From Micromonospora sp. NBC_01740 (GTDB lineage Bacteria; Actinomycetota; Actinomycetes; Mycobacteriales; Micromonosporaceae): a stretch of 64,000 bases of DNA. The position numbers and the translations under genes were made by a program. How positions within the stretch are numbered: position 1 is the first letter of the stretch; the number at the start of each line of letters is the position of its first letter. Positions 1,313 through 62,296 of the stretch are shown here, piece after piece. The stretch is taken from the NCBI RefSeq assembly GCF_035920365.1, contig NZ_CP109150.1, forward strand, positions 1,426,001 to 1,490,000, read 5' to 3'. The notes under the pieces were generated by a model. It was not told the DNA's origin, did not search any database, and worked only from the letters and a program-made list of their open reading frames with translations.

Positions 1313-4225
1313 TCAGACGATGGCCATGTCCACGAAGCGCGACAGGTGGAGCTGCGCGGCCACCGTCACCGTGTCGGTGGGGCCATTTCTGTGCTTGGCA
1401 ACAATGAAATCCGCCTCCCCGGCACGCGGCGACTCCTTGTCGTAGTAGTCGTCGCGGTGCAACAGGATGACGACGTCGGCGTCCTGCTCGATCGAGCCCG
1501 ATTCACGCAGGTCGGACAGCTGCGGTCGCTTGTCGGTGCGCTGCTCCGGGCCACGGTTCAGCTGACTGACCGCGATCACCGGGCACTCCACCTCCTTGGC
1601 GAGCAGCTTGAGGCCACGGGAGAGGTCCGCGACCTCCTGCTGCCGGCTCTCGGTGCGCTTCGGAGAGGTCATCAGCTGGAGATAGTCGACCACGATCAGC
1701 TTGAGGTCGTGCCGCTGCTTGAGCCGGCGCGCCTTGGCCCGGATCTCCATCAGGTTCATGCTCGGCGTGTCGTCGACGAAGAGCGGCGCCTCACTGATCT
1801 CGCCCATGCAGCGGGCGAGCTTGGTCCAGTCGTCGTCGGAGAGCTGGCCGCTGCGCAGGACGTGCAGGGGCACGCGCGCCTCGGCCGACAGCAACCGCAT
1901 GACGATCTCGACCTTGCTCATTTCCAGCGAGAAGATGGCCGCCGCCTGGTTTGCCCTGATCGCGGCGTTGCGCGCGAAGTCCATGCTCGCCGTGCTGTTG
2001 TGTGTCGGGATCATCGCCCGACCCGCAAGGTAGAGGTGCTCGGGATTGTCCACCGTGACGCACCGGACCGGCACGCTCGCCACCGGTCGGACGTCGACGA
2101 TGAAACGGCTGTCCGTCCGGGAGTTGCTCTCGCTACGGCGCCGCAGCCGGTGCGCCTCCCGCTTGCGGGTCAGGCGGAACACTTCGTCCCTCGTCGTGAA
2201 GTTCAAGTTGAAGGCGATCGAGCTTTCCGCGGTGCGCCCCTTGACGGTCTTCCGGCTGACCGAGCAGCGGTACCCGAGACTGACGACCAACTCGTGCACG
2301 TCCTCGGCGAGGCGGGGGGACGTCGTGGTGAACTGCACGTTCCCGCTGACGGTCACGGTGCCGTCGGTGTCGAGCAGCCCGGCCAGCAGCGCTCGCCGCT
2401 GCGCCTCCGAGGCCCGCAGGTACGCGGCGGGGACGTGCTTGTCGCCCAACACCCCGGCCGCCCGCAGGTAACCACGGAAGGAGCCGTAACGCTTGTGGCA
2501 GTCGCGGCACCTGCGACTTGCGTTCCAGGCGCTGGCGTCCACTCTCCCGCAGTGGGCGCAACCTTCGCGCCGCGCCGCAGGGACGAGTCCTTTCGACCGG
2601 CCCCCACACGACTGGCCGCAGGTATGGATCGCCGGGCCACGAGGCGTGAAGACGGCGTGGCAGACGACGCATTCACGGTCCGGGATCGCGGGCAGCCGCG
2701 GCGGACGAATGGTGTAGACCATCGGCCCCGAAGGTCTGACCTCGAAGCCGTCGGACTCGATTCCGGCCAGGATCTCCGGGTCGACGGTGGTGACCCTTCC
2801 TTCCGCCGTGTGGCCGTCGCCGAGCCAGACGCCGAGCGTGTACGGCGCAAGCGGGAGTTCGCGTTCCGGAAGGCGGAGTGCGGCGGCGTTTTCGACCGCA
2901 TGATTGAGTCGTCGGTCGGCCGTGTTCGTACGCAGGGTCGCTCGTATCTGCTCCGTCGTCACCACGTCTTGCAGCTCCGCCGCCGCCAGGCTCTCCGACC
3001 ACTGCTCGACACGCTCCAGCAACTGGCGGTAGAGACGGCGGGCCGGATAGGCCCTGGCCGGGCGCACACGCGGGCGCCTGCGCATGACGACGGGCGACTC
3101 GTCGGCGATGTCGCGCGTCACCCGGTGGGCGGTGTGCGTGAACTCCGGGCCGAGCACGGCGGCCAGCTCCGCGATCGTGACGTCGTCGCCGGGCGCCGCG
3201 CCGGCGGCTGCCCGGTGCAGCCGTTCGATGGCCTCGGGAGACCAGTGGTTGCGGCGGCGGGCGGGGGCAGCGCGGCGGCTTGCCCGCGTAGTGGTCTTCC
3301 ACAGGTGTTCACCGTCGGCGACGATCACCGAGCCGTCGGAAAACTCGACCTCGTAGCACGGCCGGTCGTGCCGTACCTCGAACGCGGCGGTGACCTTCGT
3401 CGGCAGGCCGTCAGCGCTCAGCAACTCGTCGCCGACCTTCACGTCCCCCATGGTGGTCCAGCCCGTCGGCGTGGGAAGGGGGGTGTCCAGCGCGAGCGCC
3501 TTACCCAACCCGGGGCGTCCGGCGACGATCACGAGTTGCCCCGCGTGCAGGCCGTTGAGCAGGCGGTCCAGGTCGGTGAAGCCGGTGGGGACGCCGGTCA
3601 TCATGCCGCCCTGGGCGCCCACCGCCTCGATCTCGTCCAGTGTCGGCTGGAGCATGTCGGCGAGTACGGCGAAGTCCTCGCTGACGCGGCGCTCGGTGAT
3701 GTCGTAGACCGCCTGCTGGGCGAGGTCGACGACGTCGTCGACGTCGCGGCTGCCGCCCTGAGCCGTGCCGTAGCCCAGCTGCACGATCTTGGTGCCGGCC
3801 TCGACCAGACGCCGCAGGACCGCCCGCTCGCTGACAATGCGGGCGTAGTAGGCCGCGTTCGCGGCGGTCGGCACGCTGGCGATCAGCGTATGCAGGTAGG
3901 GGGCGCCGCCGATCCGGACGAGATCGCCGGAGTTGGCCAGGGCCGCCGCCACAGTGATGGAGTCGGCCGGCTCACCCCGGCCGTAGATCTCCAGGATGGT
4001 GTCGAAGATGGTGGCGTGCACCGGCCGGTAGAAGTCGTTGGTCTTGAGGATCTCCACGACGTCGGCGACGGCGTCCTTGGACAGCAGCATGCCGCCGAGG
4101 ACGCACTGCTCGGCGGCGATGTCCTGGGGCGGGGTCTTGTCGAACTGGCCGTCGCGCTGCGGCGGCGGGGACGCGTGCCCCCCGCCCGATCGCGAGTCCG
4201 CCCGCATGTCGTCGGTGACCGACAC
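1313..4225 (-). CDS. dnaB: replicative DNA helicase DnaB interrupted by an intein
   Basis: This is the hexameric 5'-3' replicative helicase of the replication fork. The 970-residue precursor has a 242-residue N-extein (N-terminal DnaB domain, starting near QCVLGGMLLSKDAVADVVE, then the RecA-like core up to the P-loop GRPGLGK). A 501-residue intein follows, and then a 227-residue C-extein that resumes STASMDFARN, with SLEMSK and Walker B LIVVDYLQLM. Excision would give a normal-length helicase of about 469 residues. I chose GTG 4225 over the in-frame GTG 4240 because GGAGGGGGA precedes it at good spacing. The same neighbourhood (rpsF-ssb-rpsR-rplI-dnaB) is found in mycobacteria and Streptomyces, and mycobacterial dnaB also carries inteins. 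The helicase cannot bind ATP before splicing, because the insertion lies between the P-loop Lys and Ser/Thr. Confidence 0.95.
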   Translation of the reverse strand: MSVTDDMRADSRSGGGHASPPPQRDGQFDKTPPQDIAAEQCVLGGMLLSKDAVADVVEILKTNDFYRPVHATIFDTILEIYGRGEPADSITVAAALANSGDLVRIGGAPYLHTLIASVPTAANAAYYARIVSERAVLRRLVEAGTKIVQLGYGTAQGGSRDVDDVVDLAQQAVYDITERRVSEDFAVLADMLQPTLDEIEAVGAQGGMMTGVPTGFTDLDRLLNGLHAGQLVIVAGRPGLGKALALDTPLPTPTGWTTMGDVKVGDELLSADGLPTKVTAAFEVRHDRPCYEVEFSDGSVIVADGEHLWKTTTRASRRAAPARRRNHWSPEAIERLHRAAAGAAPGDDVTIAELAAVLGPEFTHTAHRVTRDIADESPVVMRRRPRVRPARAYPARRLYRQLLERVEQWSESLAAAELQDVVTTEQIRATLRTNTADRRLNHAVENAAALRLPERELPLAPYTLGVWLGDGHTAEGRVTTVDPEILAGIESDGFEVRPSGPMVYTIRPPRLPAIPDRECVVCHAVFTPRGPAIHTCGQSCGGRSKGLVPAARREGCAHCGRVDASAWNASRRCRDCHKRYGSFRGYLRAAGVLGDKHVPAAYLRASEAQRRALLAGLLDTDGTVTVSGNVQFTTTSPRLAEDVHELVVSLGYRCSVSRKTVKGRTAESSIAFNLNFTTRDEVFRLTRKREAHRLRRRSESNSRTDSRFIVDVRPVASVPVRCVTVDNPEHLYLAGRAMIPTHNSTASMDFARNAAIRANQAAAIFSLEMSKVEIVMRLLSAEARVPLHVLRSGQLSDDDWTKLARCMGEISEAPLFVDDTPSMNLMEIRAKARRLKQRHDLKLIVVDYLQLMTSPKRTESRQQEVADLSRGLKLLAKEVECPVIAVSQLNRGPEQRTDKRPQLSDLRESGSIEQDADVVILLHRDDYYDKESPRAGEADFIVAKHRNGPTDTVTVAAQLHLSRFVDMAIV
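1997..3499 (-). mobile_element. class 3 intein with LAGLIDADG homing endonuclease and two zinc-ribbon motifs
   Basis: This is a 501-residue in-frame insertion in dnaB between the P-loop Lys and the +1 Ser. It starts with Ala1, not Cys or Ser, and ends THN before Ser+1. It shows the noncontiguous Trp-Cys-Thr signature of class 3 inteins: Trp67 in GEHLWKT (block B), Cys480 in VRCVTVDNPEH (block F) and Thr499 in IPTHN (block G). The Trp67 position and the Cys-to-Thr spacing of 19 match the mycobacteriophage Bethlehem DnaB intein as I recall it. Two LAGLIDADG-type motifs, LGVWLGDGHT (about 222-231) and LLAGLLDTDG (371-380), keep their acidic residues, so the endonuclease may be active. Between them lie two zinc-ribbon patterns (Cys277/280/294/298 and Cys314/317/331/334). 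Confidence 0.93.
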
Positions 4226-4617
4226 GGGTCCCCCCTCCACTGCGTCGGATCTGGATCCAGCCCTGTCGCCGGGATGGACAACCTCGACCTGCCGGTCGAT
4301 CGGGGGTCATCGCACGACCGGTCGGGGGCCAACCATACGGAACCCGAGGTCAGCCCCTCAACCACGTCGGTGGACGAGCCTCGGGACAACCTGTGGACGC
4401 CGGGGGACAAGCATGTGCGCAGGGTGTGCACAGCCTGTGGACAACGGCTGGGGAATTCTCCGCTGCAAGGTGCTGACCTGCGGAAACACAATCCCCAGCC
4501 TGTGGACGGCAAGTTTTCGGTCGAACTGCGCGGTCGAACGTCCCGTACTATCTCCAGCGAACGGCTACACCTGCACAGCGGATTGCGCAATCGGTTGAGA
4601 AGGGTCACGCTCCGGCC
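4226..4617. other. dnaB upstream region with DnaA-box-like sites
   Basis: This 392-base gene-free stretch separates the divergent dnaB (minus) and the membrane-protein gene at 4618 (plus). It holds a perfect actinobacterial DnaA box on the minus strand (TGTGGACAA, 4436-4444) and two variants (TGTGGACGC 4392-4400; TGTGGACGG 4501-4509). It is locally less GC-rich around 4440-4600. No coding potential is seen. Promoters for both genes should lie here, but I cannot place them. Confidence 0.5.
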
Positions 4618-6225
4618 GTGAGTAACCGGGACTGGGGACGCGGAGAGGGCGGTCCGCGCGAGCCGGTCGCCTCCTGGGACGATCCCGCCGACCCGGCACC
4701 GGTCGATCCGTACGAGCACGCTCCCGCGCGGCACCGCACGCCGAGCCGGCGCCGGGCTGTCGAGCGCGGGCAGCAGGAGCCGGTCGACAGCTACCTGCCG
4801 CGTTGGGCCCTGGAATCGGGGATCCGCAGCGCCGACGGCGGTGGCCGTCACGCCGCGCCCGACGACGAGGTGGGGATCGAGGCCCACCAACCGCACTCCG
4901 GTGCCTGGCGGGCCACGGAGACCACGAACAGCTGGCACCGGGTCAGCGAGACGAGCTGGCGCGAGACCCCGGCGATCGACGCTGTTCCGCAGTCGGAGCA
5001 CACCGGAGAGTGGACGTTCGGCGCTGCCCAGCAGTCGGAGCACACCGGGGAGTGGACGTTCGACCGTCCGCAGGAGCGGGGATACTCCGGGCGGCGGCGG
5101 GCCGAGGACGACCCCGTCTCGGGCTCGGCGCCGCCGAGCCGGCCGAGGCGCCTGCCGTCGCAACGCCCGCAGGTCGTCTGGTCCGGCCTGGAGGAGGCGG
5201 ACGCGTCCGGGTCCGTACCGGATCGGGAGGCCGAGCGGCCGGCCCGCCGGGGCCGGCGGGCGGCGGAGGACCGCCCCGCCGTCGATCCCTGGGACCGGGA
5301 GTCGCACCTCGCCGCGTCCGAGAGCCCACCCTCCCCTCCGGCGGTGGACGCGTGGGACGCGTCGGGTGTGCACGCGTGGCACCCGGCCGGTGAGATCGAC
5401 CGCTGGGACCACGCCGACACCGGCCGGTGGGACCGGGCCGACGACACCGGCAGCTGGGACCGAAGCGACGGCACGGGTCGGTGGGACCGGACCGACGGCA
5501 CCGGTGAGTGGCGCCGGTCCGACGACACCGGCGCGTGGGAGCGATGTTCCGACGACGGCGGGTGGGACAGGACCGCGCCGGGCTCCGGCGGGGGCGCCGT
5601 GCAGGAATGGTCCTGGCCGGGGCAGGACGACCGGAGCGAGGGTTTCTGGTCGGGCACCCGGCTGGCGGGCGACGATCCCCGCTGGATGGACCCGCCGGCG
5701 TCGGCGCCCCGGTCACCCGTGGTGCCCTACTCCGCGCCGCGGCCGCGTCCCGCGCCGCGTCGGCGCGTAGCCGAGCCGGTCGGTGCCGCGACGGCGTCGG
5801 CCGTACGCCGTAGGGCCGGGACCGCCGGGGCGGGGGCGTGGGGCCGTCGTATCGAGGACGACCTGCTCGATCCCGATCCTGGCGGTCCGTGGCGGTCGCT
5901 GCTCTACACGGTCGCGTGCTATCTGGTGCCGGCGGCGCTGATCTTCGTCTGGTTGCTGACCCTGGACGGACAGGTGCCGGCGGGGTGTGTCACCGACATC
6001 AGCGGAGGGGGTTGCGACTCGCCTCGGGCGCGGGCGCTTGGCTCGCTGGCAGCGGGCCTGCCGCGCTTCGGGTTGGCGCTGGCCAGCAGCCTGGTCGTGG
6101 CGCTGCTGCTGCGCCGGGTCGGTACGACGTGGCGTTCGGCCAGCGTCGCGCTGGCGGCGGCCGTGGTCGGCGGCGGTCTCTCGACGGTGATGATCAGCGC
6201 GGTGACGGGCCAGCCGATCGGCTGA
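4618..6225 (+). CDS. large repeat-containing membrane protein of unknown function
   Basis: This is a 535-residue protein that I do not recognise as a named family. The first about 420 residues are hydrophilic, acidic and Trp-rich, with short repeats. Two copies of a QSEHTGEWTF unit fall near residues 125-150. Six or more TGxWDRxDD-like units fall near 262-320. The last about 110 residues carry three or four hydrophobic segments (LLYTVACYLVPAALIFVWLL, a FGLALASSLVVALLL segment, and a VALAAAVVGGGLSTVMI segment), so the C-terminus is an integral membrane domain. I chose GTG 4618 because no in-frame start lies closer to the hydrophobic part with a better ribosome site; AGAAGGGT lies upstream. It stands alone between divergent dnaB and convergent rplI. 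The repeat region suggests a flexible cytosolic tail. Confidence 0.8.
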   Translation: MSNRDWGRGEGGPREPVASWDDPADPAPVDPYEHAPARHRTPSRRRAVERGQQEPVDSYLPRWALESGIRSADGGGRHAAPDDEVGIEAHQPHSGAWRATETTNSWHRVSETSWRETPAIDAVPQSEHTGEWTFGAAQQSEHTGEWTFDRPQERGYSGRRRAEDDPVSGSAPPSRPRRLPSQRPQVVWSGLEEADASGSVPDREAERPARRGRRAAEDRPAVDPWDRESHLAASESPPSPPAVDAWDASGVHAWHPAGEIDRWDHADTGRWDRADDTGSWDRSDGTGRWDRTDGTGEWRRSDDTGAWERCSDDGGWDRTAPGSGGGAVQEWSWPGQDDRSEGFWSGTRLAGDDPRWMDPPASAPRSPVVPYSAPRPRPAPRRRVAEPVGAATASAVRRRAGTAGAGAWGRRIEDDLLDPDPGGPWRSLLYTVACYLVPAALIFVWLLTLDGQVPAGCVTDISGGGCDSPRARALGSLAAGLPRFGLALASSLVVALLLRRVGTTWRSASVALAAAVVGGGLSTVMISAVTGQPIG

Positions 6226-61931: not shown

Positions 61932-62005
61932 GGGGCTATAGCTCAGTCGGTTAGAGCGCAGAGCTGATAACTCTGAGGTCGCTGGTTCGATTCCAGCTAG
62001 CCCCA
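61932..62005 (+). tRNA. tRNA-Ile (GAT)
   Basis: A 74-base cloverleaf has acceptor GGGGCTA/TAGCCCC, D-arm GCTCAGTCGGTTAGAGC, anticodon stem-loop CAGAGCTGATAACTCTG with anticodon GAT, and T-arm GCTGGTTCGATTCCAGC. The discriminator base is A. CCA is not encoded. It lies at the ileT position next to gyrA. Confidence 0.97.
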
Positions 62006-62049
62006 CCGCACATTCGTCCGACGGCAGTCGAGCGCGAGGGGTAGGCCCC

Positions 62050-62178
62050 ATGTTCAAGAAGCTTCTGATCCTGGCCGGCGTCGTTGGTGTGGCAGCCGTG
62101 GTGGCCAGGAAGGTCAAGGCTTCCAACGACGAGCGCGCCCTGTGGCACGAGGCGACCACCGCGCCCGACCTGCGCTGA
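62050..62178 (+). CDS. DLW-39-like micro-protein
   Basis: This 42-residue protein begins with MFKKLLILAGVVGVAAVVARKVKA, one membrane segment with a basic end, and closes ALWHEATTAPDLR. This fits the DLW-39-type small proteins that lie between tRNA-Ile and tRNA-Ala in actinobacteria. Its function is unknown. The start is ATG 62050, after GGGGTAGG. Confidence 0.8.
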   Translation: MFKKLLILAGVVGVAAVVARKVKASNDERALWHEATTAPDLR

Positions 62179-62220
62179 TCTCGCTGGCACTGCCGGCACC
62201 GGCGGCTTCGTCCGCCTCCC

Positions 62221-62296
62221 GGGGCCCTAGCTCAACTGGCAGAGCACTGCCTTTGCAAGGCAGGGGTTAGGGGTTCGAGTCCCCTGGGCTCCACCA
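62221..62296 (+). tRNA. tRNA-Ala (TGC)
   Basis: A cloverleaf has acceptor GGGGCCC/GGGCTCC (one G-U pair), D-arm GCTCAACTGGCAGAGC, anticodon stem-loop CTGCCTTTGCAAGGCAG with anticodon TGC, T-arm GGGGTTCGAGTCCCC, discriminator A and encoded CCA. It pairs with tRNA-Ile, the standard ileT-alaT position. Confidence 0.97.

Follow-up and report, generated by a model that had tools for sequence, protein, structure and literature searches.

Results

The dnaB locus and its insert

We analysed a window of 64,000 nucleotides from Micromonospora sp. NBC_01740 (contig NZ_CP109150.1 of assembly GCF_035920365.1, positions 1,426,001 to 1,490,000); coordinates below count from its first letter. Our subject is the dnaB gene on the minus strand and the insert that interrupts it. 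Judged by its residues and relatives, we take this insert with high confidence to be a class 3 intein, homing-type endonuclease included. As an intein it is ordinary, since about half of the sampled genomes of the genus carry one. The finding is of a known kind; a cysteine module within a splicing-type intein and a footprint in silent sites add to its interest. The frame from 4240 to 1313 has no stop throughout, and profiles of the DnaB domains PF00772 and PF03796 match on either side of the insert. The parts of the gene are as follows.

1313..4240, minus strand: dnaB precursor, 975 residues including the intein; relatives start at the sixth codon (PF03796 1.8e-98, PF00772 4.6e-33, TIGR00665 5.1e-156)
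3500..4240, minus strand: N-extein, ending GRPGLGK, the first part of Walker A (translation)
1997..3499, minus strand: predicted class 3 intein, 501 residues (translation, homology)
1994..1996, minus strand: Ser+1, codon AGC, expected second nucleophile and also the P-loop Ser (sequence position)
1313..1996, minus strand: C-extein, beginning STASMDF, with the stop at 1313-1315 at its end (translation)
1493..1498, minus strand: DnaB intein site a, RESG|SIEQ, empty in this genome and occupied in 43 of 151 genomes

The insert begins with ALALDTPLPTPTGW (ALALDTPLPTP...), ends with MIPTHN, and interrupts the Walker A motif between Lys and Ser. An earlier note on this DNA, made by a model from the letters, had placed an intein here and described the P-loop as split. 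Both statements hold: the segment is a full-length homologue of solved mini-inteins and lies between GRPGLGK and STASMDF. The note also expected a spliced DnaB of 469 residues. That length results if translation begins at the sixth codon (970-501), as it does in P0007 and other relatives (MSVTDD); counting from the first GTG gives 474. The note was silent on the endonuclease, the cysteine module and how common the family is. DnaB is essential, and the C-extein has one match in its own genome. Antisense to dnaB, on the plus strand, runs an open frame of 1091 codons (1346-4621); such frames are common in GC-rich DNA and nothing indicates a gene.

Class 3 signature and predicted splicing

The residues expected to matter for splicing were checked by position.

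3497..3499, minus strand: Ala1; position 1 has no nucleophile (residue check)
3356..3358, minus strand: Cys48, equivalent of Cys48 in Mycolicibacterium smegmatis (Msm) DnaBi1 (residue check; role from the available part of PMC6195587)
3299..3316, minus strand: block B, Asp62-x-x-His65-x-Trp67 (residue check)
2060..2062, minus strand: Cys480, block F, expected branching nucleophile (residue check, relatives)
1997..2005, minus strand: Thr499-His500-Asn501, block G (residue check)

Position 1 holds neither the Cys nor the Ser of class 1. The sequence features of class 3 are present: Ala1, Trp at B:12, Cys at F:4 and Thr at G:5, alongside Ser+1, the terminal His-Asn and His at B:10. The nine signature residues are thus A1, C48, D62, H65, W67, C480, T499, H500 and N501. 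That the segment starts with Ala, and that Trp67, Cys480 and Thr499 are present, had been claimed before; translation and alignment with solved class 3 inteins bear this out. The class 3 assignment itself gains support from homology: as in Msm DnaB-1 and M. leprae (Mle) DnaB, Trp is residue 67 and the block F Cys precedes the final Asn by 21 positions (480 to 501).

Searches with phmmer against PDB sequences returned 6rix (M. chimaera, E 2.2e-41) and 6bs8 (M. smegmatis, E 9.7e-37). Alignments with 6rix, 6riy and 6bs8 run from residue 1 to residue 501, covering the first 75-80 and the last 35 residues. Among 7992 scored candidates, 7274 proteins are homologous at E <= 0.001; the nearest named one, from Micromonospora sp. 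NPDC047812, is 97% identical. A script excised the intein from 115 of 120 listed homologues, left five unextracted and evidently mis-cut two (200 and 582 residues). A1, C48, D62, H65 and W67 occur in 114 of these 115, with a gap in one, and C480, T499, H500 and N501 in all 115. Across the 151 genomes sampled from the genus, all nine positions, Ala1 included, are kept in 74 of 74 that bear the intein.

We read the insert as class 3 because it is homologous to inteins with experimentally shown class 3 chemistry, namely Msm DnaB-1 (His65, Trp67, Cys118, Asn139) and Mle DnaB (His65, Trp67, Cys124, Asn145), both described in the part of PMC5222942 available. In Msm DnaBi1, which occupies the P-loop (site b), the P-loop Ser acts as Ser+1 and Cys48 is important for splicing (PMC6195587, in part). 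Msm DnaBi1/DnaB-1 (6bs8, 6own; PMC6195587, PMC5222942, each in part) shares with the intein here site b, Ala1, Cys48, Asp62, His65, Trp67, Ser+1 and the spacing of 21 from block F Cys to final Asn, at 70% identity over 69 columns. However, it is a mini-intein of 139 residues without endonuclease, whereas the present one has 501 residues, an endonuclease and a cysteine module. M. chimaera DnaB1 (6rix, 6riy; 77% identity over 69 columns) and M. leprae DnaB are likewise class 3 DnaB inteins and, from the source text available, also mini-inteins (M. chimaera chain of 145 residues; Mle Asn145). Sequence comparison gives good support for placing the present intein, a full-length one at DnaB site b, in the mycobacterial DnaBi1 lineage; the well-studied class 3 family gains a full-length member. 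The DnaB intein of Mycobacteriophage Bethlehem is also class 3, with a block F nucleophile; the earlier note likened the Trp position and Cys-Thr spacing of the insert to those of a class 3 DnaB phage intein.

In the mechanism expected from tested relatives, Cys480 would attack the bond between Lys and Ala1 and accept the N-extein, which would then transfer to Ser+1. Cyclisation of Asn501 would release the intein. The exteins, joined by a peptide bond, would rebuild GRPGLGKST and so an active DnaB. Until then DnaB is likely to be inactive, as the earlier note held; the available part of PMC6195587 calls this 'reasonable to assume'.

Some points temper this picture. The AlphaFold model (mean predicted local distance difference test score, pLDDT, 84.2; predicted template modelling score 0.68) is uncertain at the active-site ends, with pLDDT < 50 at residues 1-4 and 490-501. 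A check of the Hedgehog/intein fold aligned just 69 columns of the model with 6riy and 6bs8 (TMt 0.33-0.34), the same ends having pLDDT < 50. That the insert does not splice, or takes the class 2 route by direct attack of Ser+1 with its Trp-Cys-Thr residues a mark of ancestry only, accords with the predicted status of splicing, with Ala1 ruling out class 1 and with the presence of Ser+1, but is highly improbable given the nine invariant residues, no stop reported within any of the 74 inteins, a lone C-extein match in the genome whose precursor presumably must give working DnaB, and the loss of splicing when Cys F:4 is changed to Ala in Msm DnaB-1 and Mle DnaB, the nearest relatives with splicing data (PMC5222942, in part).

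Endonuclease and cysteine module

The middle of the intein carries the following features.

2813..2836, minus strand: first LAGLIDADG motif, LGVWLGDG, residues 222-229; Asp228 kept in 69 of 74
2498..2671, minus strand: cysteine-rich module, Cys277, 280, 294, 298, 314, 317, 331 and 334; spacing like that of zinc sites, zinc being inferred
2234..2401, minus strand: LAGLIDADG_3 match (PF14528 1.5e-9), containing the second motif LLAGLLDTDG (2360-2389)

PF14528 matches residues 367-422 with 38.5 bits against a cut-off of 22.5. Both motifs of a LAGLIDADG endonuclease are present with their acidic residues, and these are intact in 59 of the 74 genome inteins. The AlphaFold model has its best fold match in PI-SceI (VDE, the yeast VMA1 intein; E 9.9e-13), also an intein with a LAGLIDADG endonuclease. 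PI-SceI is a class 1 intein. Identity with it is only 11-13%, and VDE is without a zinc finger in the available text of PMC7282813.

Between the two motifs, eight cysteines form four close pairs with CxxC or CxxxC spacing (C277/280, 294/298, 314/317, 331/334). This stretch varies among homologues at the same site. It could be delimited by script in 112 of 116 inteins, with no close pair in 7, one in 7, two in 50, three in 2, four in 44 and five in 2. Cysteines in the module region number 8-9 in 13 of the 74 genome inteins, 4-5 in 33 and 0-3 in 28. In a pattern scan of 51 viral loci, 24 distinct candidates emerged; all of them lack a close cysteine pair, and their N-ends are unreliable.

In this genus the FtsK P-loop (GATGAGK|A...THN|S) can also hold an intein of class 3 type, with about 495 residues and roughly 45% identity to P0001. 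An FtsK-type match directly adjoins an FtsK C-extein match in at least 12 of 151 genomes; the genome studied here has the DnaB copy only. The FtsK intein P0133 is identical at 46 of 75 positions in the N-terminal splicing part, 31 of 105 at residues 76-180, 34 of 82 at 181-262, 21 of 68 in the module, 62 of 114 in the endonuclease core and 26 of 36 at the C end. Hence the module is poorly conserved between DnaB and FtsK, yet no less than the 76-180 arm. A close cysteine pair is absent from all 38 FtsK modules that could be delimited (of 105). The helix-turn-helix profile HTH_23 matches at E <= 0.05 in 19 of 36 FtsK proteins versus 0 of 36 DnaB proteins, and was seen above its cut-off in P0160 only (27.7 against 24.6 bits). 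Loci L018-L020, L022 and L024-L026 hold FtsK P-loop inteins of class 3 type without the cysteine module, often with a helix-turn-helix match there.

The spacing suggests that the module binds zinc, which we favour without much assurance, and that it is probably a zinc-stabilised DNA-binding arm. Profile searches count against this. No Pfam zinc family scored above cut-off in the whole intein or in residues 247-346; the best in the cysteine stretch was zf-Vps39_C (E 0.2, 11.7 bits against a cut-off of 24.7), and such families match single members of the intein family only (E 0.0056, 0.013 and 0.026). Instead, the cysteines could form a structural disulphide or serve in redox chemistry, or the module could be a remnant in decay. 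The profile result suits that explanation, as does the module region without any cysteine in 21 of 74 genomes. We nevertheless think it unlikely, given at least two close pairs in 98 of the 112 delimited DnaB-site modules and the helix-turn-helix match at the same place in FtsK-site relatives.

For a zinc-type arm, the yeast nucleases HO and WHO are the nearest parallel. They are likewise intein-derived LAGLIDADG nucleases with CxxC-rich zinc fingers, and the part of PMC7282813 available calls them the sole known intein-zinc finger fusions in any organism. Their fingers follow the intein-like region, with no exteins and no splicing, whereas the module here lies within a splicing-type intein (same source, in part). 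The DnaB and FtsK P-loop inteins, with related splicing domains and a different stretch between the motifs, offer a way to test how a homing endonuclease acquires new targets.

Distribution and descent in the genus

Of the 151 genomes, 93 match P0001; removing 14 weak matches (E above 1e-30) and 5 of FtsK type only leaves 74. All 74 site b inteins were parsed from their loci. The other 77 genomes have an intact P-loop pattern, and occupied and empty alleles form an exact partition. Note that our dnaB tree, built on 891 bases lying clear of the two intein sites, is a quick tree with support from the Shimodaira-Hasegawa-like approximate likelihood ratio test only. On the best tree, intein presence needs 41 changes, 24 of them on starred, well-supported branches; shuffled labels need about 50 on average, with 0 of 500 as low as observed. 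Distances between inteins and between exteins are correlated (Spearman 0.38; Mantel, 0 of 500 as high), and both have the same nearest neighbour in 27 of 74 cases. We conclude that descent is mixed, vertical and horizontal.

Silent sites around the insertion point

Outside the two sites, dnaB has a G+C content at third codon positions (GC3) of about 0.94, measured in the 60 alleles with neither site occupied. At the insertion point of the 77 intein-free alleles (L082-L158) it drops to 0.69 in the last ten N-extein codons and 0.51 in the first ten C-extein codons. Codon choice between -5 and +10 was set against that for the same residue at other places in these genes. Rare codons are enriched in intein-free alleles: TTG at Leu-3 in 37 of 77 (elsewhere 46/2190), AAA at Lys-1 in 45 of 77 (25/780), GCA at Ala+3 in 43 of 77 (54/2572), TTT at Phe+7 in 56 of 77 (3/395) and AAT at Asn+10 in 62 of 74 (3/246).

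Intein alleles keep preferred codons from -1 to +8. AAG at -1 is found in 73 of 74 (intein-free, 32/77) and AGC at Ser+1 in 72 of 74 (intein-free, 4/77). At +9 and +10 they still have rare codons (CGA 23/74, AAT 25/71). We also compared 24 independent pairs of alleles. AGC at +1 lies in the intein allele in about 23, with the reverse in 0, and AAG at -1 in 15.4, with the reverse in 0.1. GC3 of codons -1 to +8 is higher in the intein allele in 15.4 pairs and lower in 1.4 (median p 7e-4). The difference is not significant at -60 to -30 (5.4 vs 3.8), -20 to -6 (3.9/3.1), +10 to +25 (6.8/2.7), +40 to +70 (8.9/3.0) or +100 to +130 (6.2/3.7).

When 15-codon windows are compared in those 60 doubly empty alleles, site b has the lowest GC3 (0.52), and the window from +165, at site a, has 0.68. 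In the N-flank of site a, occupied and free alleles differ little (9.9 vs 3.4 pairs, median p 0.12). A third, shallower dip lies at C-extein codons of about +190 to +210 (0.78-0.80 in 151 dnaB alleles); it is unexplained and not at a known intein site.

Controls at other sites and in other genera

The trough does not occur at every intein site, an idea that we rejected. For FtsK, 30 loci were fetched: 25 were intein-free and parsed, 4 were unparsed and 1 was occupied. The 25 have no trough at the P-loop and intein site (GC3 0.94-0.98). RecA (30 intein-free loci) has no broad dip at its intein site or P-loop; single five-codon bins are low, at 0.68 for the intein site (due to +7/+8 GGT only) and 0.79 for the P-loop. 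The RecA intein, with Cys1 at MFG|SPE, was found in 5 of 41 genomes searched (L340-L344).

In outgroup dnaB, GC3 is 0.85-0.91 at site b (35 genes with GC3 above 0.85) and 0.78-0.97 at site a (32 genes). No broad trough, defined as gene minus site GC3 over 0.25, occurs in 39 of 45 outgroup intein-free dnaB genes with GC3 of 0.78 or more. Among those 45, it appears in 3 of 4 genes from genera with an intein allele fetched, compared with 3 of 41 others (Fisher p 0.005). Note that these exposure labels come only from the 67 outgroup loci that were read, out of 192 matching genomes, and that L232 is a counterexample. One outgroup dnaB P-loop (L227) holds an intein whose end, VVVHN, differs from the THN of class 3 type. 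Within the genus, strains with small genomes have 0.93-1.0 at site b in 6 of 8 cases (0.79 and 0.71 in the others); they form one branch and were chosen after their values were seen.

At family level, 113 of 250 genomes have an intact P-loop, 26 of them from the same genus. Of the other 87 rows, 76 were used first; the 11 left out (genera g92, g97, g104, g109, g110, g113, g114, g126 and g131) include 5 with rare TTG/TTA or AAA. Occupancy was read among the matches listed (E under 1e-30, not of FtsK type), and G353, G451 and G491 have an intact P-loop together with a strong intein match. With three g113 rows added, rare marks occur in 13 of 20 intein-free genomes from six genera with frequent inteins and in 6 of 56 from five genera with few (p 7e-6, kinship ignored); before the addition the latter figure was 4 of 53 (p 1.3e-6). 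These exposure tests, in outgroups and across the family, point the same way as the other controls, but are weak or ignore kinship.

Proposed homing and escape, and alternative explanations

Homing with short, lopsided co-conversion, from -1 to about +8, is likely, since in about 23 of the 24 independent pairs AGC at +1 goes with the intein, while farther flanks do not. The endonuclease would cut intein-free dnaB at the P-loop codons, and the intein would be copied in along with a few flanking codons (AAG|AGC...). Lineages without the intein may then have changed silent target positions and so come to resist cutting. Intein alleles with a recoded upstream flank would be formerly recoded alleles, later invaded. 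Such silent escape is our best single account of why the sites were recoded, at a little short of even odds. Recoded codons at -5 to -2, present in intein and intein-free alleles alike, lowered it slightly from even.

Both resistant alleles and co-conversion have been described in other homing elements (PMC10643990, PMC7282813, each available in part). The haloarchaeal MCM inteins, likewise in a helicase, have resistant empty alleles and co-converted flanking codons; there, in the part of PMC10643990 available, resistance is tied to a flanking amino acid (Pro), whereas the differences here are silent. A full-text literature search, judged by titles and the starts of abstracts, found no report of codon troughs at intein sites, which does not establish their absence from print.

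The boldest reading of these data is a silent-site arms race: in genera where DnaB inteins circulate, intein-free alleles would have taken up rare synonymous codons across a stretch of about 15 codons at the homing site, and the intein would carry an exchangeable DNA-binding module, of zinc type in DnaB and helix-turn-helix type in FtsK. We hold this tentatively, at a probability of roughly 0.4. If it is right, an essential motif with a fixed protein sequence evades an endonuclease through silent changes, and even intein-free genomes could betray homing sites and past exposure by local anomalies in codon use. Host resistance to homing elements in such genes becomes testable, and the 74 occupied and 77 empty natural alleles of one genus are a ready set of target sites.

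Several observations weigh against silent escape. Codons -5 to -2 are equally poor in both allele types (GC3 0.57 with intein and 0.56 without; pairs 6.4 vs 5.1) and GGT at -4 is equally common (55/74 and 59/77); the escape account is weakened because escape alone leaves this shared upstream dip unexplained. Several control windows lean the same way as -1 to +8 without significance, +40 to +70 most (median p 0.18). FtsK and RecA lack a broad trough, the rank correlation over 10 genera is not significant (Spearman rho -0.58, p 0.08), and genus g95 has rare marks in 2 of 5 genomes without a strong match.

The alternative that survives best is a local loss of GC-biased gene conversion. Recombination would fail near a polymorphic insert of 1.5 kb, and silent sites would drift to an AT-rich mutational balance. 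This would give a narrow trough, of a few tens of bases, that both allele types have in common at -5 to -2 and at +9/+10, as observed. The trough is also deepest where inteins are at intermediate frequency (site b, 74/151, then site a, 43/151), with no broad dip where they are rarer (RecA, 5/41; FtsK, at least 12/151). Changes go toward A or T even where another GC codon is possible, as at +9 (CGA 47 and CGG 19 of 77). However, the allele types differ at -1 to +8, where the endonuclease would read, and co-conversion would then be needed to explain the GC-rich flank of intein alleles. We regard this explanation as doubtful, while taking it seriously.

An explanation by translation or regulation, general to P-loops or to dnaB, is improbable, and the controls mostly reject it: strong conservation of P-loop residues would suit it, as would the small dips that remain (outgroup site b; outgroup site a, to 0.78 in two five-codon bins; one bin of the RecA P-loop), but the trough is absent from the FtsK P-loop, from those 39 of 45 outgroup genes and from 6 of the 8 small-genome strains.

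Elsewhere in the window, genes for tRNA-Ile (GAT) and tRNA-Ala (TGC) lie at 61932-62296.

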